From positions 1 to 50,816 of the forward strand of contig CAIWWK010000098.1 of the NCBI GenBank assembly GCA_903916325.1: a DNA stretch of 50,816 nt. Direction: 5' to 3'. Origin of the DNA: Candidatus Firestoneibacteriota bacterium. GTDB lineage: Bacteria; Oederibacteriota; D2-FULL-39-29; CAIOVX01. Position numbers and translations under genes: made by a program. Of the stretch, positions 15,636-34,036 are shown in pieces. The notes under the pieces were generated by a model. The model was not told the DNA's origin and searched no databases. It saw only the letters and a list, made by a program, of their open reading frames with translations. Positions within the stretch are counted from its first letter, which is position 1; the number at the start of each line of letters is the position of its first letter.

Positions 15636-16571
15636 CTATTTCTCTTTAGTTGTATCCGCCGCAGGCTCTGCAGCCTTCTTTTTTTTGTCTTCTACAGGCT
15701 TTTTTAGTACGGTCCTCAAATACATCTTATCAGCGTCTATGTATTGCAGAGGACTCGCCTCAAACATAGTTTTGTGCGTGTTACCGCAAAAGAAATAGGT
15801 TCTGCCTTCATACCTTGCATCCGGAAAAGTATTTCTCCCGCGCCCTCTTATCTTGTCCTGCTTGCCGCAAACCTGGCACGTTACTATATCTTTAGAATAT
15901 TTCCACTGGTTTTTGTCAAACTCTTTTTTCCTTGCCTCGTCAATGAAATAATATCTTACACCGTGATACTCGGAAGAAGGCGTCTTTTCCGTAACTTTAA
16001 TGCTTGTTCCTGTGACCGCGCAAACTGTTTCGGTAAGTATAGTCGAATCCGCCTCGGCGGGAACCGGCATTTTTTTTACTGCCTCTGGTTTTACCGCCGG
16101 AACAGCTGCAGGAGCAGCCTGGGCCGGAACTGCAGGAACTGCAGGAACTGCCGGAGCTGCCGGAACTACCTGCGCCGGAGCCATGGGAGCGGGCTTCGCC
16201 GGAGTGGCAGGAATAGCCTGCACCGGAGCTGCAGGAACAGCTTGCGCCGGAGCTGCAGGAGCCGCCTGTGCCGGAGCTGCAGGAGCCGCCTGTGCCGGAG
16301 CTGCAGGAACAGACTGCGCCGGAGCTATAGGAACAGACTGCGCCGGAGTTGCAGGAATAGCCTGCACCGGAGCTGCAGGAACAGCTTGCGCCGGAGCTGC
16401 AGGAGCCGCCTGTGCCGGAGCTGCAGGAACAGTTACCTCCACTTTTTTTTCTTGAATAACGGCTTTAGGGGCGGATTTTTTTTCAGGCGCCGGCTCGTCC
16501 TCATCAAAAGCCTGGCCAAAAACTCCGACGGAAAGGAAAAGAACACCTAGGATTGTTACTATTAACCTCAT
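15636..16571 (-). CDS. Secreted Ala/Pro-rich repeat protein with two C-terminal YHS/TRASH-like domains
   Basis: Signal peptide MRLIVTILGVLFLSVGVFGQA; (AAPAQAVP)n repeats; ETVCAVTGTSIKV...YHGVRYYFIDEARKKEFDKNQWKY and VTCQVCGKQDKI...YEGRTYFFCGNTHKTMFEASPLQYI. Promoter and RBS place the start at 16571. Confidence 0.75.
   Translation of the reverse strand: MRLIVTILGVLFLSVGVFGQAFDEDEPAPEKKSAPKAVIQEKKVEVTVPAAPAQAAPAAPAQAVPAAPVQAIPATPAQSVPIAPAQSVPAAPAQAAPAAPAQAAPAAPAQAVPAAPVQAIPATPAKPAPMAPAQVVPAAPAVPAVPAVPAQAAPAAVPAVKPEAVKKMPVPAEADSTILTETVCAVTGTSIKVTEKTPSSEYHGVRYYFIDEARKKEFDKNQWKYSKDIVTCQVCGKQDKIRGRGRNTFPDARYEGRTYFFCGNTHKTMFEASPLQYIDADKMYLRTVLKKPVEDKKKKAAEPAADTTKEK
16100..16440 (-). repeat. 24-bp (8-aa AAPAQAVP) tandem repeats with a 144-bp higher-order period
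   Basis: Octapeptide units; the segment starting gcaggaatagcctgcaccgg recurs at 16207 and 16351 (144 bp apart). Confidence 0.8.
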
Positions 16572-16607
16572 AAAGGATACCTCCTGAGGATTAAACTTAA
16601 CTTCGTA

Positions 16608-16636
16608 ATTATGCCACACATGGCTGGAAAAGTCAA
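16608..16636 (-). promoter_or_regulatory. Sigma70-type promoter of the YHS/Ala-Pro protein gene
   Basis: TTGACT - 17 bp - CATAAT on the minus strand. Confidence 0.7.
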
Positions 16637-17622: not shown

Positions 17623-18537
17623 CTATTTTGAATCGAACATAAACGAAACCGAGAAAGTATGCGTGGTTCCGAGGTCTCCGAAGGGCACATAGGCGTAGTC
17701 TACGCTGATGTTTCCGATTACCAAACCTGCTCCCGCGGTCAGTCCAACCACATCGCTGTTCTTTAATGTGTATCCAACTCTTAATGCTCCGGACATGGAA
17801 CTGTCCAGCCTGAGTTTGTATTCCGCTCCCACAGCTGCGTACAGGCTTGAATCTGAAGGCGCTACTGCATCTACCGCCAACAGCAAGTCTTTCATTACAT
17901 TCCCAGATATACCCGCTTTTACAGATAGCGGCACTGTGAATGCGTCCGAGACAAACTTTCCTCCGAATCCCAGGTTGTAAATACCGATTGCTCCTGTTGC
18001 CTGAATATCTCCAAGTTTTAGCGGCTGCATAACTCCCGCGTCAATACAAAACGCGCTGGCCGTAGACACGATGCTCAACGATGCGTACTTTACCGTTACT
18101 CCCAGACTTAAATCATTCAGTTTAGCAGCATAGCTTGCCTCTATCACAAGATCCGCCGGGTTGAAGGTTCCTGTGGTGAGTCCCGTCGTGTCGGTCTGCG
18201 GGATGCTCCCGTAGTTCAAGTACTTCACCCCAATACCTACCCTGTCATTTCCCATCGGCATCGCAACCGAGACCCATTCGTAGCTCGTATCTCCAAACCA
18301 GATGGAGTGCATGAAGGTTGCTGTGGGTTTCGTCAGGGTGTTTAATCCTGCCGGATTCCAAAACACAGCCGTTGAATCATCAGCTATTGAAGTAAACGCT
18401 TCTCCCATTCCTTGCGCTCTCGCTCCCGCAGGCAGGTTCAATACTGCAGCTCCCGTCGTTCCGTTGTCGCTACTACTGAAGGCCAGCGCTGCAGTTGCCA
18501 TCAATGTTCCGGCTACGATAATAATTAGTTTTTTCAT
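17623..18537 (-). CDS. PorV/PorQ-family outer-membrane beta-barrel protein
   Basis: Signal peptide, then GAAVLNLPAGARAQGMGEAFTSIADDSTAVFWNPAGL, the PorV/PorQ signature; C-terminal aromatic beta strand FSVSFMF. ATGA overlap with the upstream giant gene. Confidence 0.88.
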   Translation of the reverse strand: MKKLIIIVAGTLMATAALAFSSSDNGTTGAAVLNLPAGARAQGMGEAFTSIADDSTAVFWNPAGLNTLTKPTATFMHSIWFGDTSYEWVSVAMPMGNDRVGIGVKYLNYGSIPQTDTTGLTTGTFNPADLVIEASYAAKLNDLSLGVTVKYASLSIVSTASAFCIDAGVMQPLKLGDIQATGAIGIYNLGFGGKFVSDAFTVPLSVKAGISGNVMKDLLLAVDAVAPSDSSLYAAVGAEYKLRLDSSMSGALRVGYTLKNSDVVGLTAGAGLVIGNISVDYAYVPFGDLGTTHTFSVSFMFDSK

Positions 18538-21500
18538 CTCTGCACCGCCAGTTTAAACATCCGCTGCGTCCCGCCGCCTTTTATCAACACCACATACACT
18601 CCGCTTGCCACCTTCTGACCGGAATTATTAGTTCCGTCCCAGGTAGTTATGCCGCTTCCGGCTACAACATTAATCGACTTTACCTTGATTCCCGTTATCG
18701 TATACATAGATATCGTGCAATCGCTTATCAGGTTCGCAAATGTAAAGACCCCGTTATTGGGGTTATACGGATTCGGGTAAAGATTGACATTCTGAAGGTT
18801 TGCAGATGCCTTCATCATCAGGATTGCAAAGGTCGTAAAGTGCCGAAGCGTTGCCTCCACCCTTCTTTCCGCAGGGTAAACCGTGGAATGCAATATTACC
18901 CACCGGTTGTTGATTGTGTCATAATACCCTATCTGGAAGCCGGTCTCCTCATACGCCGCGGCTTCCGCGGCCGTATAATACAGATTGATGGTGATATCCT
19001 GCTGCGGAGTGAATCCCACCGGGCCTGTAATCTCTACTCCCACAACACAGGGGGTAAGCCCATCCCTGTCAGGCGCAGGAATAGACGCCGTCGGCTTAAT
19101 GGTCAAGGTTACTGTTCCCGTAAAAGTTCCCGCAGGCACCTCCACGTCTATCTGCCCGTGACCTAAATCCGCCGCCTGGACGGTTACGGTGGTGGTAGAG
19201 CTCTGGGAAACTGTAACCGTCGTTGCGGAGCTGGTCACTACAAACTGCAGGCCGCTTGAGGCGTTTGTTCCTCCCGCAGCTGTTACAAGCAAATCATAAG
19301 TTCCCGCGGCTATGCCTGTGGGAATGACCACATTGTTTATCGCGGTATCGGCAGTTACGCTAAAGGAGGATATTCCCGCGCCGCCAAGAGTTATTGCAGT
19401 TACGGTATTACTGTTGATTCCTCCAAAGAAACCGGAGCCGGTCACATTCAGGGTCACTATGGTAAGGTTGGAGCTTGTGGTTAAGCTTAGGCTGCTGACC
19501 GTGGGAGCCGGCGTTGTGACGGTGAATCTGTCTGAGGCTGATGTTATGCTGATTCCGCCAAGCGCTGTGACCGTAATATCGTAAACTCCAACTGCTTTGC
19601 CTAACGGTATTACCACTCCCGTTATCGTGCTGTCGTTTATTGCGGGGCCTGAGGGAATAACCTGGCTTCCAAGTTTGACTGAGGAAACTGTATTGCTGTT
19701 CACTCCTCCGAAGAATCCGCTGCCGGTTATACTGATAGTTGTTGCTCCAAGATTGGAGCCCGTGTTTACGCTTAAATTGCTGATGACCGGTACAGGCGAA
19801 ATGACTGTTATGGCCGTTGTGGCCGCAGCGCTCTCGTTGCCTATCGCGTCAAGCGCAGTCACGCTGAAGTTGTTTACCCCGAGCACAAGATTAACAGTCT
19901 TCTGCCAGGCGGTTGAAGAAACTATGCTCACGCCTGTCGTGCTGCCGTTAACTTTCATTGAGGCAGCGTCAGTTGCTTTTGTTCCGCTGAGCAACTGTGT
20001 AGTTATACTTGTCGGTGAAGTTACTGCGCTTATAATCGGTACTGACGGCGGTATCGTATCTAACAAGATTGCGGTTGTTGCAGTCGTGCTTGAGTTTCCT
20101 GCCGCGTCAAGCGCCGTTACGCTGAAGCTATTATTCCCTTCTGACAAGTTGACTGACGCCTGCCAGGTCGTTGACGACAGGATACTTACTCCGGTCGTTC
20201 CGCCATTAACTTTGATGACCGCCGCATCCGTCACCTTCGTTCCGGTTAGCATCTGTGTAGTTACATTTGTAGGCGATGTAACCGCATTGATTACCGGAAC
20301 CGCAGGAGGTATGGTATCCAGCGTAATTGCCGTTGTTGCCGCTGTGCTTGAGTTTCCGACAGCGTCAAGCGCTGTCACGCTGAAGTTATTGACTCCCTCG
20401 TTCAGATTAACTGCGGCCTGCCAGTTCGTGCTTGAGAGTATGCTTACTCCGGTTGTGCCGCCGTTAACTTTGATGACCGCCGCATCCGTCACCTTCGTTC
20501 CGGTTAGCACCTGCGTAGTCACATTTGTCGGTGAGGTAACCGCATTGATGACAAGTACTGCGGGAGGTATCGTGTCAAGCGTGATTGCCGTTGTTGCAGC
20601 CGTACTTTCGTTACCTACAGCGTCAACCGCTGTTACGCTGAAGTTATTTACTCCCTCGTTCAGGTTAACTGCTGCCTGCCAGGTCGTTGACGACAGGATG
20701 CTAACTCCGGTTGTTCCGCCGTTAACTTTGATGACCGCCGCATCCGTCACCTTGGTTCCGGTTAACATTTGGGTAGTCACATTTGTCGGCGATGTCACCG
20801 CGTTGATGGCAGGTACCGCAGGCGGTATCGTATCTAACAAGATTGCGGTTGTCGCTGCAGTGCTTGAATTTCCAACCGCGTCAACTGCCGTCACGCTGAA
20901 GCTGTTTGCTCCCTCGTTCAGGTTGACAGACGCCTGCCAGGTTGTTGACGACAGGATGCTTACTCCCGTCGTTCCGCCGTTAACTTTGATAACCGCTGCG
21001 TCTGATGCCTTTGTTCCTGTGAGAAGTTGTGAAGTCACATTTGTAGGAGATGTCACCGCGTTGATTACCGGTACCGCAGGCGGTATCGTATCCAGCGTGA
21101 TGGCCGTTGTAGTTGCTGCGCTCTCATCGCCGACCGCGTCAAGCGCCGTCACGCTGAAGCTGTTGTTCCCTTCTGTCAAATTGACTGACACCTGCCAGGT
21201 TGTTGACGAGAGTATGCTGACTCCCGTCGCGCTCCCGTTTACTTTTATTGCATTTGCGATTGTCGCTTTCGTTCCCGTCAGGAGCTGGGTAGTTATATTC
21301 GTGGGAGAGGTCACCGCGCTAATGGTTGGCGCCGCCACAGTTGTGGTTACTGTGAATCTGTCGTTAGATGAGGTGGCGCTTATTCCCCCTGACGTCGTTA
21401 CCGTAATATCGTATGTTCCTATTGTTAATCCCGCAGGGATGATCACACCGGTTATCGCGCTGTCATTTGAAGCTGTGTATGCCGTAAGGGCAGTTGTCCC

Positions 21501-24500
21501 GAGTGTAACCCCTGAAACTATGCTGCTGCTTCCTCCCCCGAAAAATCCGGAACCGGTGATATTCAGCGATGTTGATACAAGGTTTGATCCGCTGTTCGTA
21601 CTGATACCGCTCACAACAGGCACTGGCGTCAGCGAAGTTACTGTGTACTTATCCGCCGAAGTGGTCGCACTTGTTCCGCCGAGAGCTGTTACAGTTACAT
21701 CGTAGGTTCCCGCCGACAAGCCGGAAGGTATTACTACTCCCGGTAGCGTGCTGTCATTTGAAACTCCGCTATACGCCAATGTTGTCGTGCCCAGCATTAC
21801 CGCAGATACAGTGTTGCTTCCGACTCCTCCAAAGAACCCGCTTCCGGATACCGTTATCGTCACATTGGAAGTATTCGCTCCGTTATTTGCGCTAAGAGCC
21901 GTTACGGTCGGCGCGGGCGTTGTCACCGTGTATTTATCCGCCGAAGTGGTTGCGCTTATGCCTCCGGGGGTTGTTACCGTGACATCATACGTTCCAAGAC
22001 CAAGCCCCGCCGGGATTATTACTCCGGGTATTGTGCTGTCGCTGGACGCTGGGCTGAAGGGAAGGCTTCCGGTCCCGAGCTTTACCGCTGAAACCACGCT
22101 GCTTCCAGCGCCCCCGAAGAAGCCGTAACCGGATACCGTTATCGTCGCGGGACTAATATTTGCTCCGTTATTCACGCTCAATCCCGAAACAACGGGCGCC
22201 AGGGCAGTTACCGTATATATGGAAGTCGCTGTCGCGCTGTTTGACATCCCTCCCAGCATTCCTACCGCCGAGATTGTGGCCGAGGTTGACTGCGTGAACG
22301 GGCCTGAATACACGGTCGAGCCGCCGTTCGGCGTTGTTCCGTCCTTGGTGTAGTATATTGTGGCGCTGCTGGTCGCCGTGGAAATGGTTATTGTGACCGC
22401 GCCGGTGTAGGTTCCGGACGCAGGGGTAATTACCGGCGTTGCTACAGGAGAAGCCCCGATAACTCCAAACTTCTGTGAACTCGCAGAGTTTGTTCCGATA
22501 TGCGTCGTTACCTTTATGTTGTATGAACCGCCGGCTATGCCCGCAGGAACAACTGCTCCGCTGATGGAAGTGTCCGTTATAAGAGCGCCGATAATAGCAA
22601 GCTGTGTGTTTCCCGCATCGTCAAACGCAACGGAAGTAACATCCGCGCTCCCCACGCTTCCGTAGAAACCGCTTCCGGTAATGGTCACGGTTGTCACTGC
22701 CGCTTGCGCCGCGCTGACAGGCGTTACTCCCGTTACAACCGGCGCGTCCTTAGACTCGTAGAACCCCGCGTCCCACTTTACATCTCTCGTTGCGCCAAAG
22801 TAGTCCGTCGTGAAAACAGAAGACAGGTCTGCCCCGAGGAATTTCGCGGGAGACAACCGAGTCAGTTTATAATCACCGGGCGTGGCACCGTTGTTGTTAA
22901 CCAGAGCAGGATCGCCATATATAGAATTTGTGTCTCCACCAAGCCCGCTCGCTTTCCATGAAGCAATATTTGCATAAACAGTACCGGCCCACGAAACCAG
23001 CCCTCCTGTCCCGCTCACTCCAGATGGTATATAGTAGCAGTTGTTATTTATCGTGGTATTTGAGACAGAAGTTGGGGTAAGGGTGATCAGCTGTTGATTG
23101 GAAAGGACCGGCTTGTAGCAAACGATATTATTTAGAAGCGTTGAGCCCGCGTTTGTGCTGGTGCTGGTATTGAGTAAAGCGCCGTTGATTATAGTGTTAT
23201 TATATATTTTAAAGGGAGTGATGTTCGTATACGAATATATCGGCCCCCTGGACTGGCTGATAAACAAATTATTATAAATAGCGCAATTGGTCGCGGTGGA
23301 GGCGCTCCAATATATCCCGTCAGACCTGCTCGGATAATTATTGTAGAACATATTATTCCTTATTATATAATTATCCGCGGTCGGCTGTGTGACATAAAGA
23401 TGAGTCCCTGCGCTGGAGGCCGTTTGCGGGATAACCTGATTGAAAAGTTTGTTCCCGTCAATCACCATCATTGTGGCTTGCATCTGAATCCCGGTATTAT
23501 CAAAAATATTATTAATAATAGTCGTATACGAAGTATTAACTTTTGCGCCTGTGTTTATGCCCCAGGCTGGAAGCGCTCCGGACTTAAAATAGCAATTTGT
23601 CACAACGGACCCGCCGGTAAACAGGTTGGAGAAATTAATCCCGTAACTCAAACAATCGGTAATCGTCAGGCTGTCATAGGTTGTATTGGTGGCATTCGCC
23701 CCGAGGCCTATTCCGTTAGCGGCATTCTTTATTGATAGATTTGAGAATGTAATAAAACTTTGCGCCCCGGTAATGGTTATACAAACCGGTCTGGTATTTT
23801 GCCCGTCTATGACCGCGGTCTCGCCTAAGGCGCCTGCAATTGTCAGCGGGTGAGTCCCGCCTGCAACGCCAAAAGTCTTGTTTAGTGTAACGGTTTCCGG
23901 ATAAGTTCCGGCATGAATCCTCACAAGGACGGGTTTCCCCATATCAGCCGCGTAGGCGCCGTCAAGGCTCATTTGGTTTATTGCGGAGGTGATAGTATTA
24001 AACGGATATCCGCCCGGCCCGACTTCGTAGACAGACTGAAGCAAATTGGCGGCGGGCCTGTAAAAGAGTCCGCCTGCTGAAGTGCTGTTTGTTCCTCCGC
24101 CGTTGGTAACCTGGGCGTAACATGTTACAGCCGAGCTGCTCGTTCCGGCATTCGCGACAAAACCCAGAGGTATCACGGCTACAATGGTTGCGTCGTCCGT
24201 CGCTGTGAAAGACGAAGGCGCGAGCAGTATGGTGGCAATCGCCGGAGACGTTACTACAAGCCTCAGAGCAGAAATATTTGGGGAGCCCGTGCCTCCGAAG
24301 AATCCGCTGCCTGCAATGGTAACTGTCGCAGGCGCTGTACTCCCGCCTGTGTTCGGAGTTACGGCCGATACCGCCGGACCAGAAACGGCGGAAGTAAGCA
24401 TAAAACCTGTGGAAGCGTTCACTGGGCTTGTGTTGCTCAGCGCCGTGGTCATCGTTCCCGTGCTGTTCTTTATCCTCAGATTATAGGAACCCTGCTCAAA

Positions 24501-27500
24501 ACCCGCGGGAATGATAATATTGGAAATACTGCTGTCTGATGCGACGCTGTAGGACGACATAACAATAGTGGAGAGAGTTCCCGACGCCTTCTCGAGAGTT
24601 ACGGAAACAATATCTGCCGAGTTTGAACCGGCAAAGAATCCAGTGCCGCTGACAGAGACCGTGACCAGGGCGGAGCTTGAACCATTGTTGGGTGTTATTG
24701 AAGCCACCGAGGGCGCAGGAGTTGAAACAGTGAATTTAGTTGAAGATACCGCGTTTGCCGTTGACCAGGTTGACACCAATACATTATAGATTCCCGCCCG
24801 GACACCCGCAGGGAAGATCGCGTTGGTAATCGCGGCTGTTCCCACGCCTCCGAAGACCGTCGTAACCGTCGGAGAAGTTGTGTCAAAAGCGATCCCCGTG
24901 ACTATTACGCCCGAAGTATAGCTCGCGACCGCGAAATTGGTGCCTGTAATAGTGCTTATGGTGATAGACGAAGTGTTGACTGCGGTTAAGGGGCTTAACG
25001 CGGTAACCGTCGGCAGCATTATGACCGTGACCACCGAAGATGAGTTTATCTGGCTTGTCACATTTGAAGTGGAAACAACTCTCGCGTTATAAGTGCCGAA
25101 GGTCATGCCGGAAGGCGCCAGTATGTTATTGATAAGCGTATCGCTTACGACTGAGAAGGAAGTTATCGCGTAATTGCAGAGGCTTGCGGCAAGTGTCGTC
25201 GAGGGTGTTCCGACCGTGTTTGAGGTCCTCTCAAGCCTGAGGCTTGAAACCCCTCCCAGGAAACCGCCGCCCGTTACGGAGATAAAATTAGCTGAGGAAT
25301 TTGTGATAGCGCTCGGAGAAACACCGGAAACCCCGAGTATCAGCGTGAATAAACCCGCGGATGATGTTACGCTTGTTCCTCCGAGAGCCGTGACCTGCGT
25401 ATAATATGAGCCGAGCGGAATGCCGGGAGGAATTATCACACCGGGCAGAGCAGTATCGCTTGAAGCAGGACCGAACGTCAGGCTGTTCGTTCCCAGCTTT
25501 ACGGAAGAAACCGTACTGCTCCCTATTCCGCCGAAGAAGCCAACGCCGGAAACTGTCAAGGTGACTGTGCCGGAGCCGATTGAAGAGCTAAGGGCTGTTA
25601 AGACCGGCAGGGGAGTTGTTACAGAATACCTGTCTGAAACAGAAGTCGGGCTTGACCCTCCCCCCGTTGTAACCACAAAATCATAAGTGCCGGTCATAAG
25701 GCCCGGAGGAACAATAACGCTTGCTATGGAACTGTCATTTACCACGCTGAATGAAGAAATATTATTTGGGCCAAGCGCCACAGAGTAAACATTGCCGCTT
25801 CCCGTGCCTCCGAAGAAGCCGCTTCCACTGACAGTAATAGTAGCAGGAGAAAGGTTTGACCCTGCGGCGGAACTCAACCCGCTTACGGTAGGAGCCGCTG
25901 CCGAAATAGCGTATTTATCAACCGAGGAGGTCTGGCTTGCCGCGCCTCCGGACGTTACGATCAGGTCATATGTACCTGCAGGAGTTCCCGCCGGAAGGAT
26001 CGCCCCTGTAATGCTTGAATCGCTTACAACAGAATAGCCGTAAAGAGTAGCCGGTCCGATATTTACGGCATTTACGGAATTGACCCCGATGCCGCCGAAG
26101 AATCCCGACCCGGTAATGTTCAGCGTTGCCGGAGCAAGATTGGAACTTGCGTTCAGGCTAAGTCCGTTGACGGAGGGAACTATGCGGAAAACCTCATATT
26201 TGCCGCTAGAGGAAGTGACGCTGGTTCCTCCGAGCGCCGTAACCGTCAGGTCGTAGGTACCAAGTGCAATACCCGGCGGAATTACTACCCCTGGTATTAC
26301 GCTGTCGCTTGACGCGGGGCCGTAAGACAGGGATAGCGTTCCAAGCATTACCGATGAGACCGTACTGCTCCCAACGCTTCCGAAGAACCCGGAACCTGAA
26401 ACATTTAGAGTAACCGTCACATAAGTTGACCCGGCGGACACGCTCAGACTGTTGACGGCAGGAACAGGCGCGGTGGTTGTTGCCAAATATTGATCTGCAA
26501 TGGAAGTGAGGCTCGTCCCGCCTAGCGCGGTCACGGAAATGTCATAAGTTCCTTTCTGGATTCCGTACGGGATGACTACTCCCGGAATTAAGCTGTCGCT
26601 CGTTGCCGCTCCGAAAACAAGACTCATTGTTCCAAGGTTTACAGCCATGACAGTGCTGCTTCCAAGCCCGCCGAAGAAGTTTGAACCGTTTATGCCGATG
26701 GTTACGGGGCCGAGGTTTGAACCGGTTGGCGGGACCAGAGATGTGACAACAGGCAGTGGAGCTGTCGTGGTTACCGCGTATTTGCCTCCGGCTGAAGTAA
26801 CGCCTGTTCCTCCAAGAGTTGTCACCGAAATATCATAGGTCCCGATCCGGAGAACTCCGGGAATCACGACGCCGGGCAGGGTACTGTCATCCGAGGCCGG
26901 GCTGAAGGCGATTGAAAGCGTGCCGAGCTTCACTCCCGTCACAATGCTGCTGCCCGCGCCTCCGAAGAAACCGGTTCCGTTTACGTATATCGTTGTCGGA
27001 GCGCTATTCATGCCGCTAGAGGGATTAAGCGAAACAACGGCAGGAACCGGCGGGATTATAAAGAGGTTTGAATTTGAGACAGCGCTTGTTCCGGCAGACG
27101 TGCTTATCTGCAGGTGGTAGACTCCGCGCGGCGTTCCCGCAGGGACCACCACTCCGTTCATTGCCTTGTAGCTTACTACAGAGTACGAACTGAGCGTCAC
27201 TGTCGTTCCTGTTGTGCCGGTAAGCTGCACGCAAGTCACCGAATTGCTTCCGGTTCCCGCGTTGAAGCCTTCTCCGTTTACTGTCAGGGTTGCCGCTCCG
27301 CCGTTTACCGCCATACCCGGCGAGATGTCAATTATCCTTGGCACCGGCGGAGTCAGAATGAACTGTGTGAAGGCGGTCATCGCGCTGATGCCCGTGCCGT
27401 TCACGATGCGGAGGTCGTAAGTGCCCAGAGCTGCTCCGCGCGGAAGCACTGCCCCGGTGATTATGCTGTCGTTCAGGACTGAGTATCCTGACAGCGTGAT

Positions 27501-30500
27501 AACGGTTGATCCGTTCAATAACACCGTGGAAACATTATTACTTCCGGTCCCTCCGAAGAAATTGTACCCGCTGATGCTGAAAGTTGCGGCGTTTGAATTG
27601 GTGGCAGAAGCCGGCATAACAGAGTTTATCACCGGCACCGGGCCGGTTGAGATCGTCGTAAAGGTATTGTCCGCCGAAGCCGTTAGGTTGCCCGCGGCGT
27701 CCTGCGAAATAACCCGGTAATGATATACGGTAGCCGGCAGCAGCCCGCTTAAGGCAACTGAATGGGCCGTAACGCTTGTAGTATTAATATCGGTCTTGAT
27801 ATCGTAAGGCGAGGCTGAAAGCCCATATTCAGCCTGTGTATTTGAGGGTTTGTTCGTGTTCCATACAATGGACCCTGCCGAAGTGGTTACCGAAACCGCC
27901 TTTACCGCCGACAACACGGGAGGATTCAAGTCTCCCCCCTGCGGCTGGGCCATTGAAGGTTTTCTTAAATAGGAAGTTGAATAACCGCCCGCATTTGTCA
28001 GCTGAATCACATTGCTGCCGTCAGAATTCATTGTGTAGAAATAGTTGGGGCTCGTGAGGAAGACTATTTTTGCACCGTCCGCGGAATAAGAAGGATAATA
28101 ATCCGTTTCGCCGGAAATGCTGTGCAGCAGCGTGACATTTGCTCCGTCGGCGTTCATTCTGTAGATTGCCTGTATCCCCCCGTTCCTGTTGCTGGTGAAG
28201 ATTATCCTGGTGCCGTCCGGAGACCAGGAAGCATCCCTGTCTTCAGCAGGATTATTTGACAGGTTTGTCACCCTGGTACCGTCGCTGTTCATCACCCAGA
28301 CTTCACCGTTGCCTGAGGCGGCGGAATAATACAGGAGTTTTGCGCCGTTGGGCGAAGGTTTGGGAAGAGCAAGCGTCCAATCGGAACCGGTTGTCAATTT
28401 CAGCAGGTTGGTTCCGTCTGAATTGATTCTGTAAAGGCCTATTGTGGAGGCACCGTCATCCCACCTGAAATACATATAATTCCCGTTCGGGCTGAAAACC
28501 GGAGTATTTATGGTCCCGGTAGCAGCCGTATAAACTTTTTTCTCACCGGTTCCGTCCGCGTTTATAATATAAATATACGGGCCGTAGGCATTTATGTCCG
28601 CCCTTACAAAGACTATCCTTGTTCCGTCCGCGGAGAATGACGGGTCATAATCATACGCCGAGTTATTTGTGAGGCGGACAAAATTACTGCCGTCCAAATT
28701 TATTTTATAGATCTCGGATTCCAGGTCTGACTCATAATAGTTATTCGGCTTGCGGTCGAAAACCACCTGATTGGTCTGCGGGGCAGGCGTAGTGGTGAAT
28801 GTCGCGTCAACGGACATGCCGAGCCCTCCGCTCCCGTTGTCGGACTTCACCCTGTAATGATAGCCGCTTCCCGCCGAAAGGCCTGTCACCACGACAGTAT
28901 GAGTAGTCACAAGATTGTTGTCGATCAGCGTCAAAAAGCCGTAGCCGCTCGAAGGCCCGTACTCCACCTGGGATTTTGCGGCCAGGTCTGTTGTCCAACT
29001 TATTGTCGCCGCTGTCATTGCCGTGGACGCGGCAATATTTGAGTTATTCGGCGCGCCGGCATTCTGCACGGTGTATTTTACTTTCAGCTGGGGACGAAGA
29101 GCGGTGCTGCCGTTGTTTTCCGTGTTTAGGGTCAAGTCGGCCCCGTTATTAAAATAAATGAGCCAGCCCTGGTTCGGGGCGCTTCCGGTTCTGAAGGATT
29201 CCACTGCGGCGGTAACATTATGGTTGTACCAGCCGGTTGCGGAATAGTACTGCGAGCCGCCCGTTTCAGCCGCCAGGCAGGAATTTTCCAGATTGTTGCT
29301 TACCGAACTTGTGGAAGTGTTTGTCCAGTAAACGCAATCCGAAAGAAGCGTCGCGGACCTTCTGTAGGCTTTGGTGGCTCCGCTAACGATGCAATTTCCC
29401 CCGTAAGTTGAATAATAGAACGGGCAGATTGCCCAGCCTGAGGGGAACCCGCCTCCGAGATTGTCAGGGTCAATTATTTGTCTCGCGGCCACGGTATCTG
29501 CGGTGCTTTTCGTGGAACAGCAGAGGGCCAGCGTCGCGCCGGTAATCGTCCCCCAGTTGTAGGTATTGCCAAGGTCAAACCTCAGCAGCCACTCTCTCTT
29601 GGATTTGTCATTCGCCCCGCCGATTCTGTATGTAGCCCCGTAACCGACACCGGTATTCCAATTGTATGTATTTGGATCCCAGGAAGCGGTTCCCGTGCCT
29701 GCTACGCCGTTATAGGTGCCTGAAGGCGAAACTCCCTGCTGGTAAATAACAGTTGCGGTAATTGCCGGCTGCCCGAGACCAAGCGAGGGCGTTACGCTTA
29801 CCTCGCTTGAGTTAGCGCTTGTGGAATTCGCAATAGTCTTTACGGCATAGAAGTAGGTTGTGGAGTTTGCCGTCCCTGTGTCCCTGTAGTAAGTCGTCTG
29901 TCCCAGGCGTGTTACCGAGGTTGTGTAGACTCCCGACGCGGTTCCTCTTGAGATGATATATCCGGAGACCAGCGGATTAAGGACAGGATCCCACGTAAGA
30001 TTTACTATGGAATCTCCGGGTACTGCCGCGACATTCGCAGGCGGAGAAAGCGGCGCGGGCGTCGCGGTAGCCTCACTGCTCTTTGTACCCTCGCTCAGGC
30101 TGTCAAACGCGGATATCATATAGTAATAGGGCGTGCCGTTCGCAAGTCCGTTGTCCGTGTAAGAGGTGACTTTACCAACCGAAGCGATAAGAGATTTGCT
30201 GCCGGTCCCAGGGGCAAAACTTCTATATATCTTGTAACCCTGGAGATCTGTTTCCGTGTTCGCAGTCCAGGTCAATATTATTGAAGAGTCCGAGGAGGTC
30301 GCGCCGAGGCCTGACGGAGCAGCGGGCGAAACAGCTCCCGTCGTGGTAAATGTCTGGTCGGCCGAGGCCTGCGGGTTTCCGGCAGGGTCAGTTGATCTCA
30401 CACGGAAGTGATAGGTAGTTCCCGCCTGCAGCCCGGTAATGGTTTCTGTATGGCGGCAGGACATCCATTTGTCGTAGAGTGTCGTGTTGCCGTAGGCGGA

Positions 30501-33500
30501 GGTCAAACCCCAGTCAACTATAGCGTCAGCGGGTTCGTCGGTTTCCCAGTAAATTGTCTCCTGCGTGTCCGTGTAGCCCGTTACCCCTGAAGCCGCTATA
30601 TTTGTTATGGCCGGCGGAGTTGTATCAACCTGCGGATTCTGCGGCAGCCTGTAAATAGGGTCTCCGAAAAACGCCTGAGTCCAATTTAAGTCCGGCATTG
30701 ACATAAAACAGGCTTCGGCAAAAGTGTAACCCTGAAGGAATGCCTGGTCAAAAACACTGTTATAACTGTAGCCGGTGAGATAGGGTTCTGCTGTCGCTCC
30801 AAGCGTTGCAGTGAATCCTTGAAGCAGCATGCGGTTTGTGTACCAGGCGCCGGTCTGCTCCATATTGACCTGCCTGATCTGGTTTGCGGTATATGAGGAG
30901 GAATGGAATCCTACCGCTCCAACCATCGGAGCAAAACAATCGGCATTGACCCCCGTATAATTGCCGTTATATAAAATCATATTGGGACAATATGTCAGCG
31001 AAGGAAATTGACCGAAGAGCCCGCCGTTGGTGTCATAAACATTTTTATATCCAAAAGCATTAAACAATCCCTGGCATTGCACAAGGTTCCACGGAGCGCT
31101 GCTGGCCAGGCCTGCATTATCCACATAGGCAACCCCGCTAGCCGGCAAACCATATTTTTCCGCGTATACCGCCTTATCAACCATCGCAAGACAGATTTCC
31201 GTCGTAGGGCCGTCCAGATGGGTAATCAGGTAGAATGTGTTTGAACCGGAACATACCGGGGAACTGAACCTGTATTCTTTCTGCAAATATGGATTTGAAG
31301 AAAAACTGCCGTAAGGATCGCAGAGATAGGAGTCGATTGCGTTGCTGTCCACCCTATATGGAAGCCCCTTCGCGATTACAATATACCTGACCGTGTTTTT
31401 CAGCGCGCTGCCGTTCGCGTTGAGAGCCGCCAATAGTTGATTTTTTATGGCGAGGTAATCGGCGCCCGTGGAAACAACATTGTCAACCTGGTAGGCGGAA
31501 TAATCGCTGATACCGGTGACCGTGACCACATTTCCCGCCGGAATGTTCCTTTTCTTCGCATAATAATTCGCAATAGTCAAAGATGTCGGACTGTTGGCAT
31601 TGGCCATGATGAGCACCTGGCTCGGGTCTATTGTTGTGTAGTTCGCCGGGACGACAGGCGTCGTGAAATCAGGCCCTGCGCCGGAGCCCCAGGCGTTTGA
31701 ATACCTCAGCCTGTAATGATAGGTGTTTCCGGCGGCAAGTCCGCTCAGCCTGACGGCAAAACCCTGAGAAGAAGTAATCGCGGTAGTCTGCATGCCGTAA
31801 GAGGTTGTAGTCCCGTATTCGACAGTGCAGGTAAAAACGCTTCCGTTGCAGCCGCCCGGCAAACCATAGAGCATCTCGCAGTTTGTCAGATACTTAATGG
31901 AGGCCTTTGAGGTGTCCCAGCCGTCAAACATAAATCGCTTGTCGCTGCCCGCGTAGGCATTGTGGCTTGAGTATTCCCCGTACATAGACTCAAACCCACC
32001 CGGGATGCTGAGGTAATTGCCTTTGGTCTGGCCGCTTCCCCCGGTTGAACAGGGCTGGAAGGCATAAGCGTAGGAACCCAGGGAAGCCGAAATCGCGACT
32101 GAGTGGTTCGTCACCAGCGCCGAATCCGTGACACTGCTCTCGGCAGACCAGGCAAAAGTTGACATTTCCACAAAATTTTTATAATTAAGCTGGCTTGAGG
32201 ACGGAATATCGGTATTCCAGGTAACGGTCAAAGTCGAAGAATTGCCGGTGGACCATTGCACATTGGAAATAGTGGGGGCAACATTAGGGATAACAGTGCC
32301 AGTAGCCACATTTGTGACGCCGTTGTCCACGATTACTGAACCTGACAAATTTTTGATGCCGGTCGCTTTTATGGAAAAGGTTGTTCCCGAGGTCAAGGTA
32401 AGCCCGCTGATAGTCACCGTGTTTGTGGCGCCATTTAAGGTTATTACAGCCCCGGAAAGAGAGACCGGCGTGCCGAGAGGGCACTGAAGGCTATAATTGG
32501 CTTTATTGACCGCATCAGTTGAATTCAAGCCCGTGTTGAATAACAGCAAAACAGCGGCGGTTGTCGCCTGCCCGTTAACAATGGCCGGCGGCGCATTATA
32601 GCCTCTCGCCCCGTATACTATTCCGTTCCCGCTCCTGTAATCCACCCATGACATCAGGGAATCACCTGCTCCGTCAGGCGCTAAAACACCGGAATCCCTG
32701 CTCCCTGCATCGTTGCAGATAGTGGCTCCTGCCTGGCCCCAGAGCAGATTCCCGGAGGCGTCTATTTTTTGCCCCTGGGCTGTGAGACCATCACTAAAAG
32801 ATATTACCGCCCCGCCCGCGCCGTCAGAGACAAGACCGGCATACCACTGATTCTTCCCGTTGTTTGAAACCGCGACGCCTCCCGCAGGCCAGCCAGTGGC
32901 AACGGCGCCGTTCACATCAAGTTTCAGCACATAAAGACTCGTAAAAGCGCCGCCGGTATCCCAACAAATAATCGTTTCTCCGGGCAGGCCCTGAAGCAAT
33001 AGCGGGTCTTGCTGGTTTCCTGACGCGGTGCAGACCGCGCTTCCTCCCGAAGCCCACTTCACGTCGCCTGCTGAATCAACCTTCTGCGCGTAAACATCCC
33101 ACCCTGTGGTTAGCGGAGTGTAAACGCTCCAGGCTAATACTCCCCCTCCGCTGCCGTCTCCGAGCAGGTTGGACCCGTACACTTGATTTGAACTGGTAAC
33201 AACTGTGGTATTGACAGACCAGGTTGCCGCTCCGGAAGCCGGGCCTAAATGCTGCATCAGGTATATGTAGCCCCCTGAATATATCTTCCAGGTTACCACC
33301 GCTCCGCCGGCCCCGTCGCTTTTTATCCGTCCTTCGCTCGGGGTGCCAGTATTGCTGATAGTTACCCCGCCTGCCGTCCAGAGCGCGTTGCCCCCGGAAT
33401 CTAATCTTTGGGCGCTCACCGTGTGCAGGGCATAGTCGCTCCAGCACAGCAGGACCCCGCCGCTGCCGTCGCTCGCTATCCAAGGATCGTTTATGCCGTT

Positions 33501-33941
33501 TGACGCGCCGCTTACCGCTATCCCGTCCGCCGCCCATTTTACATTTCCGGAAGCATCAATCCTCTGCGCGTAAATGGCCGTGCTTGCTCCGCGGCTATCC
33601 TGCCAGGCAATAATAGCCCCCCCCGCCCCGTCTGTTACGATCACGGGCGCGTACTGATTTGCAGTCGCGCCGCAGACAACTGTTCCATCGGCGCCCCAGC
33701 CGGAAACAAGACTGCCGTTTGCATCGCGCCTTTGCGCGTAGATATCATAATTTGTGGAGCCGTTCCGCTGATCCTCCCAGACAATTATGCTCCCGCCCGC
33801 CCCGTCGCTTATCATCTGCGGGTTTGACTGGTCGGATGTAACTGTTGAGGTTAGCGGAAAGGCGGTTGACGGCCAATTGGCGTGGGATATCCCGGCTAGG
33901 GCAGAGAATATCAAACAAAGGAGAGAAAACCTCTTCATCAT
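18534..33941 (-). CDS. Giant (~5,135 aa) multidomain secreted surface protein with C-terminal T9SS/FlgD-like sorting domain
   Basis: Single open frame with signal peptide MMKRFSLLCLIFSALAGISHA. Contains a TIGR03790-like domain, FN3-like modules, TolB-like propeller, IPT/TIG repeats, beta-helix, CHB_HEX_C-like domain and Ig repeats. C-terminus NVNLYPNPYNPNNGVFTF...GQKVASGVYVVLIKGGGTQRMFKLAVQR. Start at either of two adjacent ATGs (33941 or 33938). Confidence 0.9.
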   Translation of the reverse strand: MMKRFSLLCLIFSALAGISHANWPSTAFPLTSTVTSDQSNPQMISDGAGGSIIVWEDQRNGSTNYDIYAQRRDANGSLVSGWGADGTVVCGATANQYAPVIVTDGAGGAIIAWQDSRGASTAIYAQRIDASGNVKWAADGIAVSGASNGINDPWIASDGSGGVLLCWSDYALHTVSAQRLDSGGNALWTAGGVTISNTGTPSEGRIKSDGAGGAVVTWKIYSGGYIYLMQHLGPASGAATWSVNTTVVTSSNQVYGSNLLGDGSGGGVLAWSVYTPLTTGWDVYAQKVDSAGDVKWASGGSAVCTASGNQQDPLLLQGLPGETIICWDTGGAFTSLYVLKLDVNGAVATGWPAGGVAVSNNGKNQWYAGLVSDGAGGAVISFSDGLTAQGQKIDASGNLLWGQAGATICNDAGSRDSGVLAPDGAGDSLMSWVDYRSGNGIVYGARGYNAPPAIVNGQATTAAVLLLFNTGLNSTDAVNKANYSLQCPLGTPVSLSGAVITLNGATNTVTISGLTLTSGTTFSIKATGIKNLSGSVIVDNGVTNVATGTVIPNVAPTISNVQWSTGNSSTLTVTWNTDIPSSSQLNYKNFVEMSTFAWSAESSVTDSALVTNHSVAISASLGSYAYAFQPCSTGGSGQTKGNYLSIPGGFESMYGEYSSHNAYAGSDKRFMFDGWDTSKASIKYLTNCEMLYGLPGGCNGSVFTCTVEYGTTTSYGMQTTAITSSQGFAVRLSGLAAGNTYHYRLRYSNAWGSGAGPDFTTPVVPANYTTIDPSQVLIMANANSPTSLTIANYYAKKRNIPAGNVVTVTGISDYSAYQVDNVVSTGADYLAIKNQLLAALNANGSALKNTVRYIVIAKGLPYRVDSNAIDSYLCDPYGSFSSNPYLQKEYRFSSPVCSGSNTFYLITHLDGPTTEICLAMVDKAVYAEKYGLPASGVAYVDNAGLASSAPWNLVQCQGLFNAFGYKNVYDTNGGLFGQFPSLTYCPNMILYNGNYTGVNADCFAPMVGAVGFHSSSYTANQIRQVNMEQTGAWYTNRMLLQGFTATLGATAEPYLTGYSYNSVFDQAFLQGYTFAEACFMSMPDLNWTQAFFGDPIYRLPQNPQVDTTPPAITNIAASGVTGYTDTQETIYWETDEPADAIVDWGLTSAYGNTTLYDKWMSCRHTETITGLQAGTTYHFRVRSTDPAGNPQASADQTFTTTGAVSPAAPSGLGATSSDSSIILTWTANTETDLQGYKIYRSFAPGTGSKSLIASVGKVTSYTDNGLANGTPYYYMISAFDSLSEGTKSSEATATPAPLSPPANVAAVPGDSIVNLTWDPVLNPLVSGYIISRGTASGVYTTSVTRLGQTTYYRDTGTANSTTYFYAVKTIANSTSANSSEVSVTPSLGLGQPAITATVIYQQGVSPSGTYNGVAGTGTASWDPNTYNWNTGVGYGATYRIGGANDKSKREWLLRFDLGNTYNWGTITGATLALCCSTKSTADTVAARQIIDPDNLGGGFPSGWAICPFYYSTYGGNCIVSGATKAYRRSATLLSDCVYWTNTSTSSVSNNLENSCLAAETGGSQYYSATGWYNHNVTAAVESFRTGSAPNQGWLIYFNNGADLTLNTENNGSTALRPQLKVKYTVQNAGAPNNSNIAASTAMTAATISWTTDLAAKSQVEYGPSSGYGFLTLIDNNLVTTHTVVVTGLSAGSGYHYRVKSDNGSGGLGMSVDATFTTTPAPQTNQVVFDRKPNNYYESDLESEIYKINLDGSNFVRLTNNSAYDYDPSFSADGTRIVFVRADINAYGPYIYIINADGTGEKKVYTAATGTINTPVFSPNGNYMYFRWDDGASTIGLYRINSDGTNLLKLTTGSDWTLALPKPSPNGAKLLYYSAASGNGEVWVMNSDGTRVTNLSNNPAEDRDASWSPDGTRIIFTSNRNGGIQAIYRMNADGANVTLLHSISGETDYYPSYSADGAKIVFLTSPNYFYTMNSDGSNVIQLTNAGGYSTSYLRKPSMAQPQGGDLNPPVLSAVKAVSVTTSAGSIVWNTNKPSNTQAEYGLSASPYDIKTDINTTSVTAHSVALSGLLPATVYHYRVISQDAAGNLTASADNTFTTISTGPVPVINSVMPASATNSNAATFSISGYNFFGGTGSNNVSTVLLNGSTVITLSGYSVLNDSIITGAVLPRGAALGTYDLRIVNGTGISAMTAFTQFILTPPVPRIIDISPGMAVNGGAATLTVNGEGFNAGTGSNSVTCVQLTGTTGTTVTLSSYSVVSYKAMNGVVVPAGTPRGVYHLQISTSAGTSAVSNSNLFIIPPVPAVVSLNPSSGMNSAPTTIYVNGTGFFGGAGSSIVTGVKLGTLSIAFSPASDDSTLPGVVIPGVLRIGTYDISVTTLGGTGVTSAGGKYAVTTTAPLPVVTSLVPPTGSNLGPVTIGINGSNFFGGLGSSTVMAVNLGTMSLVFGAATSDSLIPGVVIPYGIQKGTYDISVTALGGTSLTSIADQYLATTTAPVPAVNSLSVSAGSTYVTVTLNVSGSGFFGSVGSSTVSSVMLGTLSLSYGPASSDSVIPGVVIPPGIALGTYDLTVTALGGTSVTSSSGKYEVFRIVPSVNGLSLNASSNLAPATLNITGSGFFGGIGVNSVNAVNIGPATLYGYSVVSDSSITGAILPAGTPAGTYDLIVTSGGAASQTSSVDKYAISAAAPTVSGLSSAAGSNLSPATITVSGSGFFGGTGSGNVYSVALGPNNISSFSVVNDSSIASVIVPPGLMTGTYDFVVTTGGGSSPTSVSDRYSVTTPLPVLTALSSSIGSGTVTLTVSGVGFFGGIGSSTVSSVKLGTNSLTFGPASSDTALPGVIIPPGIPLGSYYTQVTALGGTSVTSSAGLFTLILGVSGVSPSAITNSSANFISVTGGGFLGGVSSLRLERTSNTVGTPSTTLAASLCNYAITSFSVVSDTLINNILAPSGMTFGTYNARVVSTSNVTSQINSSSVVTVIMLPTVTALSPLTAVNTSSITISTITGTNFAVASYTSGVIVTGIAFDTTSPTVTTVFGGVGTAAITNAIFPAGVRAGIYNVLVSTWSTANAVSSTKFTVSTPAPSVASITPNNGSSSALVTVSVSGTGFFAGSNSADIVSVTLEKASGTLSTIVMSSYSVASDSSISNIIIPAGFEQGSYNLRIKNSTGTMTTALSNTSPVNASTGFMLTSAVSGPAVSAVTPNTGGSTAPATVTIAGSGFFGGTGSPNISALRLVVTSPAIATILLAPSSFTATDDATIVAVIPLGFVANAGTSSSAVTCYAQVTNGGGTNSTSAGGLFYRPAANLLQSVYEVGPGGYPFNTITSAINQMSLDGAYAADMGKPVLVRIHAGTYPETVTLNKTFGVAGGTHPLTIAGALGETAVIDGQNTRPVCITITGAQSFITFSNLSIKNAANGIGLGANATNTTYDSLTITDCLSYGINFSNLFTGGSVVTNCYFKSGALPAWGINTGAKVNTSYTTIINNIFDNTGIQMQATMMVIDGNKLFNQVIPQTASSAGTHLYVTQPTADNYIIRNNMFYNNYPSRSDGIYWSASTATNCAIYNNLFISQSRGPIYSYTNITPFKIYNNTIINGALLNTSTSTNAGSTLLNNIVCYKPVLSNQQLITLTPTSVSNTTINNNCYYIPSGVSGTGGLVSWAGTVYANIASWKASGLGGDTNSIYGDPALVNNNGATPGDYKLTRLSPAKFLGADLSSVFTTDYFGATRDVKWDAGFYESKDAPVVTGVTPVSAAQAAVTTVTITGSGFYGSVGSADVTSVAFDDAGNTQLAIIGALITDTSISGAVVPAGIAGGSYNIKVTTHIGTNSASSQKFGVIGASPVATPVITPASGTYTGAVTITISTATSSATIYYTKDGTTPNGGSTVYSGPFTQSTSATISAVGMLGGMSNSATATSIYTVTALAPVVSGLSVNNGANISPATITVSGYGFFGGAGSSVVSAVKLGTGSLPFSPASSDSTIPGVIIPAGLGLGTYDVTVTTPGGISATTSADKYTVTTPAPTVTALSANNGANTSNVTITVSGSGFFGGVGSNTVSAVMLGTTTLAYSGVSNDSTLPGVVIPSGLSAGTYDVTVTALGGTSATTSADKYTVTSLTPVPVVSGISTNSGSNLVSTSLNITGSGFFGGGSSSIVSGVTLGTTALTAYTASNDSAITGVIIPAGLTIGTYDITVTTSGGISATSSNDRFTVTTTVAAPTISAVTSPTNITTQLLTGTKATIANAIKVNGSATGVSILSSTTWQVSVNLTEGNNSFSVTALDAVGDESAATTTAITLDTIPPAVPVINAVTSPTNVTSQLLTGTKASDAAVIKVNGGTTGVSILSSTTWQASVNLNEGANSFSVTAVDAVGNSSTAATTAILLDTIPPAVPAINAVTSPTNVTTQMLTGTKVTDAAVIKVNGGTTGVSILSSTTWQAAVNLNEGVNNFSVTAVDAVGNESTAATTAITLDTIPPAVLVINAVTSPTNVTTQVLTGTKVTDAAVIKVNGGTTGVSILSSTNWQAAVNLNEGVNNFSVTALDAVGNSSTAATTAITLDTIPPAVPVINAVTSPTNVTTQMLTGTKVTDAAVIKVNGGTTGVSILSSTTWQASVNLSEGNNSFSVTALDAAGNSSTTATTAILLDTIPPSVPIISAVTSPTSITTQLLSGTKATDAASMKVNGSTTGVSIVSSTAWQKTVNLVLGVNNFSVTALDAIGNESAAATTAITVISPVPVISNLSVNTGSNLGATTISITGSGFFGGVNSNTVSSVKLGSQVIPSGPAINDSTITGVVIPLGKAVGVYDITVTALGGISITSASDRFTVTTPAPTVSSLSLTTSSNLTIVTLNVTGSGFFGGINSNTVTAITLGGAGISSFSVTADTAINNVVIPTGIAAGTYDLLVTAAGGTNASSGLQFVVTSSATTVTVSQSSTTTVTVQAADLGHGQIDVEVPAGTFTGTVTLTIKPTASIPAPDRDGLTPCVVGVEITGPVGFTPQQDITINLYYTAAEAAAYEETGFQIGYYDTINNRWVILHSTVYPAERRVEATLRHFTTFAILMMKASANLQNVNLYPNPYNPNNGVFTFANLISDCTISMYTITGIKVKSINVVAGSGITTWDGTNNSGQKVASGVYVVLIKGGGTQRMFKLAVQR
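19789..21336 (-). repeat. Six tandem 258-bp (86-aa) Ig-like repeats inside the giant gene
   Basis: Unit INAVTSPTNVTTQxLTGTKxTDAAVIKVNGGTTGVSILSSTTWQAxVNLNEGxNxFSVTAxDAVGNxSTAATTAITLDTIPPAVP. The DNA marker acatttgt recurs at 20521, 20779 and 21037 (258 bp spacing). Confidence 0.92.
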
Positions 33942-34036
33942 AAGCTCCGCATTGTACTGCAATTTCTATAATTTAGCATAATTCCCTGCAAGCCGTTAAG
34001 TAAATATTATCACATTGCCAGACAATATTATCAATG

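Follow-up and report, generated by a model that had tools for sequence, protein, structure and literature searches.

In Flavobacterium, all type A C-terminal sorting domains (CTDs) of type IX secretion system (T9SS) cargo use one PorV; cargo with a type B CTD often comes with a genetically linked PorP/SprF shuttle of its own (PMC12618676). Cargo-linked shuttles that act as anchors have precedent (PMC12618676; PMC9143113), and the gliding adhesin SprB of Flavobacterium johnsoniae is a protein of 669 kDa (PMC9143113). Reviews still confine the T9SS to Bacteroidetes (PMC7463736) or to the Fibrobacteres-Bacteroidetes-Chlorobi group (PMC11205867), and we found no description of a T9SS in Firestonebacteria in the literature searched. 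The locus described here lies in a window (the whole stretch of DNA that was analysed, 50,816 nt) from an uncultured member of Candidatus Firestonebacteria. The original prediction, made from the DNA alone, proposed T9SS-type export in this non-Bacteroidetes lineage, and this is well supported by a CTD recognisable from both sequence and fold, an SprA homologue, an adjacent PorV-family gene and many sibling cargos.

The uninterrupted frame of ~15.4 kb on which that prediction was built, with no strand given, is indeed present on the minus strand (18534..33941) and encodes 5,135 aa from an ATG. The longest version of the frame (18534..33962, minus strand; 5,142 aa) begins at an in-frame TTG further upstream; the ATG at 33941, which has GGAG just upstream, is the better start, and from it we compute a product of ~523 kDa with a pI of 4.8. 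A stop-free run of 5,142 codons is expected by chance with a probability of ~1e-106 at 50% GC, and there is no N in the sequence of the window. A sister copy of the gene in a related bin (L077) aligns collinearly over 10,067 nt, with substitutions mostly at third positions and dN/dS values of 0.04-0.23 where the copies differ, the lowest (0.038) falling inside the TIGR03790 domain; the gene is under purifying selection wherever the copies differ. Length alone rules out a chance open reading frame, as does purifying selection, and we describe the product as a half-megadalton, many-module, putative surface protein.

Read from the N- to the C-terminus, with every feature on the minus strand, the protein begins with the Sec signal peptide that had been predicted, MMKRFSLLCLIFSALAGISHA (33876..33941), recognised by eye in the translation. 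DGAGG-type repeats follow (32523..33875), by eye probably a beta-propeller; homologues from a sister family lack these repeats and start at the module before the TIGR03790 domain. That module, found with Pfam, is fn3/phosphatase-N-like and has an insertion (31623..32285). Beyond the TIGR03790 domain (30681..31619), Pfam identifies phosphatase-N-like and fn3 modules (30069..30584) and a second phosphatase-N-like module (28791..29045), with a weak DNRLRE match between them (29079..29282; 22 bits, below the cutoff of 34), and family models place a TolB/PD40-type beta-propeller at 27993..28784. There are about 18 IPT/TIG-type repeats in total: ~12 at 24153..27665 (motif scan and Pfam TIG) and, from the motif scan, one just before a CHB_HEX_C_1/Fn3_assoc domain (22224..22424; Pfam), three at 21333..22205 and two further ones at 19218..19790. 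A probable right-handed beta-helix, identified by eye, occupies 22803..24152, and six Ig-like repeats (Glucodextran_B/Big_13; 19767..21314; Pfam and motif scan), each of 86 aa and encoded by a 258-bp unit, are near-identical to each other. A pre-CTD domain ending in ...HFTTFAIL, delimited by alignment (18828..19175), leads to the CTD; similar endings precede some other CTDs of this lineage. Pfam holds no family for the N-terminal repeats, the beta-helix-like region or the pre-CTD domain. The mix of modules is unusual, as had been suggested, but giant CTD proteins as such look common in the phylum: the CTD matches listed in relatives, taken as listed, include frames of 4-7 thousand codons. One CTD-ending frame of 24,245 codons (G013:C1, around 223271) was discarded, since at least 10 kb of its length is masked as N.

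The TIGR03790 domain matches its family model over the full length (145.4 bits; cutoff 67). Its predicted structure (pLDDT 71, pTM 0.81) has only two matches with E-values below 1e-3, 4rbm and 6i9a, both gingipain K (TM 0.55-0.57, rmsd ~7), which suggests a gingipain-like fold. The likeness to gingipain K and Peptidase_C25 is confined to the fold level, where it is the best and only significant match; there is no detectable sequence similarity. Specifically, hhalign of TIGR03790 against C25, with shallow alignments, gave a probability of 0.1, a profile search of the PDB found no chain, Pfam reported no C25 match for the domain, and the canonical HG and Cys motifs are not conserved among eight TIGR03790 sequences. 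C992 and H1020 are invariant in these eight, in an arrangement different from that of gingipain, and we read the domain as a gingipain-like fold in which any catalytic function has possibly been lost. Of 45 genomes from the phylum, 7 contain TIGR03790. A literature search on TIGR03790 found nothing, and the gingipain-like fold suggests where this unexplained family belongs. A free-standing TIGR03790 plus fn3 protein of 635-657 aa, lacking a CTD, also occurs in the same genus and in the sister family (L082:2184-4157, L083:5203-7176 and L091:4412-6319, all on the plus strand).

The C-terminus that had been proposed as a type IX secretion signal is present, and its domain (18540..18782, minus strand) exceeds the curated cutoff of TIGR04183 (25.1-32.2 bits; cutoff 23); the FlgD_ig model, named for checking alongside it, stays below its own cutoff. 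The type B model, TIGR04131, is not among the matches listed for this CTD. A structure model of the C-terminus is a seven-stranded sandwich (pLDDT 86), the strand number reported for type A CTDs (PMC12618676). Foldseek ranks PorZ (E 5e-7) and PorU (E 2e-5) highest, and mirolase, RgpB and the NucA CTD from an SprA complex also match. An alignment of 16 CTDs, taken from this genome and related ones, shows K or R as the last residue of every sequence, and the resulting profile matched the CTDs of PorU (E 5e-10) and PorZ (E 5e-9) over nearly its whole length in a search of solved structures. WD-40 chains topped this search and were disregarded, as they reflect a short propeller strand pattern with no stretch passing alone. 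Judged by the features tested, the giant belongs with T9SS cargo of a type A-like kind.

The original prediction made T9SS export depend on core genes elsewhere in the genome, and the genome, which is 87.7% complete with 5.5% contamination, contains SprA alongside 11 matches to the PorV family and over ten proteins with a CTD; the refutation proposed for it, a genome lacking T9SS core genes, therefore fails. The SprA homologue (1,763-1,767 aa) exceeds the equivalog cutoff of 200 bits, scoring 202.8, and SprA matches were found in 36 of the 40 genomes searched; phmmer with SprA as query gave no hit in the PDB, despite the above-cutoff score with the family model. PorU had also been named as a component to look for, but no C25 (PorU) match was found in four genomes of the genus (G000-G003), one of them 98% complete. 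The same search returned strong matches in G018, G040 and G041, and the C25 protein of G018, a member of the same phylum, is related to PorU. The matches to the PorU model that are listed in this genome fall within the CTD part of the profile. The GldL/GldM (PorL/PorM) motor was not detected with models that are weak at this distance and gave only weak matches in other lineages. The system found is not a canonical T9SS: no PorU-type C25 sortase was found, and GldL/GldM are undetected with insensitive models. Weak but adjacent GldL-like and GldM-like genes occur in relatives of a Bacteroidetes bin (G060:C1:3894457-3896033 and G051:C176:51214-52868), where they may represent a divergent motor. 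Regarding the surroundings of sprA, we noted by eye that the gene is divergent from two lptF/lptG-like genes in this genome (L040:3715-11400), in G002 and in G008, and that lptF/lptG-like genes are near sprA in G005, so a link between SprA and LPS transport is possible. In G013, from the same phylum, the gene directly after sprA encodes a protein of 1,056 aa whose C-terminus is CTD-like (L117:8786-18293).

The gene for a PorV/PorQ-family outer-membrane barrel of 304 aa (17623..18537, minus strand) overlaps the stop of the giant gene by 4 nt. Its product scores below the PorV and PorQ equivalog cutoffs but above that of the subfamily model NF033709 (152 bits; cutoff 90), and it matches PorV of the SprA-PorV complex 6h3i (E 1.9e-5); the PorP/SprF model TIGR03519 is not among the matches listed for it. 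Six PorV-family genes of this genome, on contigs C98, C73, C208, C162 (two genes) and C213, touch CTD genes, and their gaps to CTD genes, or to each other, range from -17 to 20 nt. Random gene placement predicts ~0.12 such adjacencies, a figure that treats neighbouring pairs as independent. In G008, from the sister family, each of three homologues of the giant gene has a PorV-family gene directly before it, i.e. on the opposite side. The linkage rule is not absolute, as solitary PorV-family genes and solitary CTD genes also occur, and PorV proteins may be shared between cargos. Given one shared PorV for type A CTDs and linked shuttles for type B, the present linkage looks like a type B layout built with type A parts. 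Two side observations concern other genes: two unannotated phage records carry a PorV-like gene, and the window also encodes a protein that looks secreted and carries a long PAQAxPAAPA repeat, rich in Ala and Pro (15636-16619, minus strand).

We propose, with a probability of roughly 70%, that the giant reaches the cell surface through Sec and a T9SS and that its gene is paired with one for its own PorV-family shuttle, with the CTD kept, the barrel serving as anchor and an Ig-like stalk presenting the other modules. The chain would enter the periplasm via Sec and cross the outer membrane through the SprA-type translocon of the genome; the adjacent PorV-like barrel would bind the type A-like CTD and draw the chain off SprA. 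The CTD would probably be retained, because no PorU-like C25 sortase was found, and the barrel would then act as an anchor, the role that SprF has for SprB. The Ig-like arrays may build a long stalk on which the propeller, gingipain-like, fn3 and other modules are held at a distance from the cell, where they might bind polymers or other surfaces; putative adhesion to particles or polysaccharides would be in keeping with the types of module present.

The chief alternative is that the protein is a canonical T9SS cargo, which would lose its CTD to a sortase that our searches did not recognise and be attached to a glycolipid at the surface; PorV would only shuttle, and the adjacency would reflect co-expression. 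A divergent or unrelated sortase could cleave the CTD, and this reading draws on the PorU cleavage of type A CTDs (PMC9143113), on their normally sharing one PorV (PMC12618676), on the PorU-related C25 protein of G018 in the same phylum and on the incompleteness of the genome itself. We nonetheless consider it unlikely, since no C25 protein was found in the four genus genomes, including the one that is 98% complete, and since repeated adjacency of shuttle and cargo genes fits dedicated shuttles better. Less probable still is that the Ig-like domain at the C-terminus is merely of the general FlgD-like kind and plays no part in sorting, in a protein that is periplasmic or exported otherwise. FlgD structures do match both the CTD model and the profile, but more weakly than PorZ and PorU, which outrank them in both searches; TIGR04183, and not FlgD_ig, is over its cutoff; sixteen unrelated proteins, each with K or R as its last residue, carry the domain at their very C-terminus; and the genome has SprA and linked PorV-family genes.

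A different kind of doubt concerns the assembly, in which two related, repeat-rich copies of the gene could have been joined into the single frame; the exact product would then exist in no one cell. A second copy does exist, and near-identical patches sit between diverged stretches: the giant and L077 share 1.54 kb with 2 mismatches (window 28499-30038) and 996 bp exactly (window 23814-24809), flanked by stretches with dS near 0.7, in copies that otherwise differ by ~15-19% in DNA. These patches reflect either segment exchange between the copies or an assembly crossover, and the contig of the other copy stops within one of them. Against a join, the sister copy carries the same modules and aligns collinearly for 10 kb, such that either copy would be a giant, and an independent assembly confirms the 3' end of the gene together with the PorV gene: CAITPB010000167.1, from a separate public Candidatus Firestonebacteria bin, is 99.94% identical over 5,029 nt that span the last 2.3 kb of the giant gene, the PorV-like gene and beyond. 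We give an artefactual join only a very small chance. The bin of that contig also has a second CTD and PorV copy, with 84% DNA identity. The sister copy of the first part of the giant gene is found in two bins, G003 and G001, with 99.98% identity over 6.2 kb; these bins differ by ~13% in the SprA region, which suggests a mis-binned contig or a recent transfer and leaves the species that owns the copy uncertain. Positions 20.8-23.8 kb of the window are covered only by the source assembly, and the apparent number of repeats in the 258-bp array is provisional; the general architecture of the giant is independent of both the repeat number and a possible join of copies.

An SprA/PorV/CTD system across most of a candidate phylum, lacking the known sortase and having its shuttle genes next to those of the cargo, would split a minimal translocation-and-shuttle core from possible later additions, namely sorting, a motor and gliding, and it offers testable cargo-shuttle pairs. 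More tentatively, and at somewhat less than even odds, the locus may represent a PorU-less T9SS branch outside Bacteroidetes, in which type A-like CTD cargos, giants included, are encoded with dedicated PorV-family barrels, which both draw these cargos out of SprA and stay as permanent anchors.

Compared with described systems, this one departs from the canonical T9SS in its host lineage, in having no recognised sortase and in its cargo-linked PorV-family genes. It shares with type A cargo and PorV of Porphyromonas and Flavobacterium a signal peptide, a seven-stranded TIGR04183 CTD, SprA and a PorV-family barrel; unlike those systems, its host lies outside Bacteroidetes, PorU is not recognisable, the motor is undetected, and the PorV-family genes are multiplied and placed beside cargo genes. 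From SprB/SprF, whose cargo has a type B CTD, it differs in its type A-like CTD, in a barrel of the PorV/PorQ rather than the PorP/SprF family, in its unrelated repeats and in the lack of a detected gliding motor, whereas the two are alike in pairing a giant, repetitive surface protein with the gene for a shuttle or anchor barrel directly downstream.
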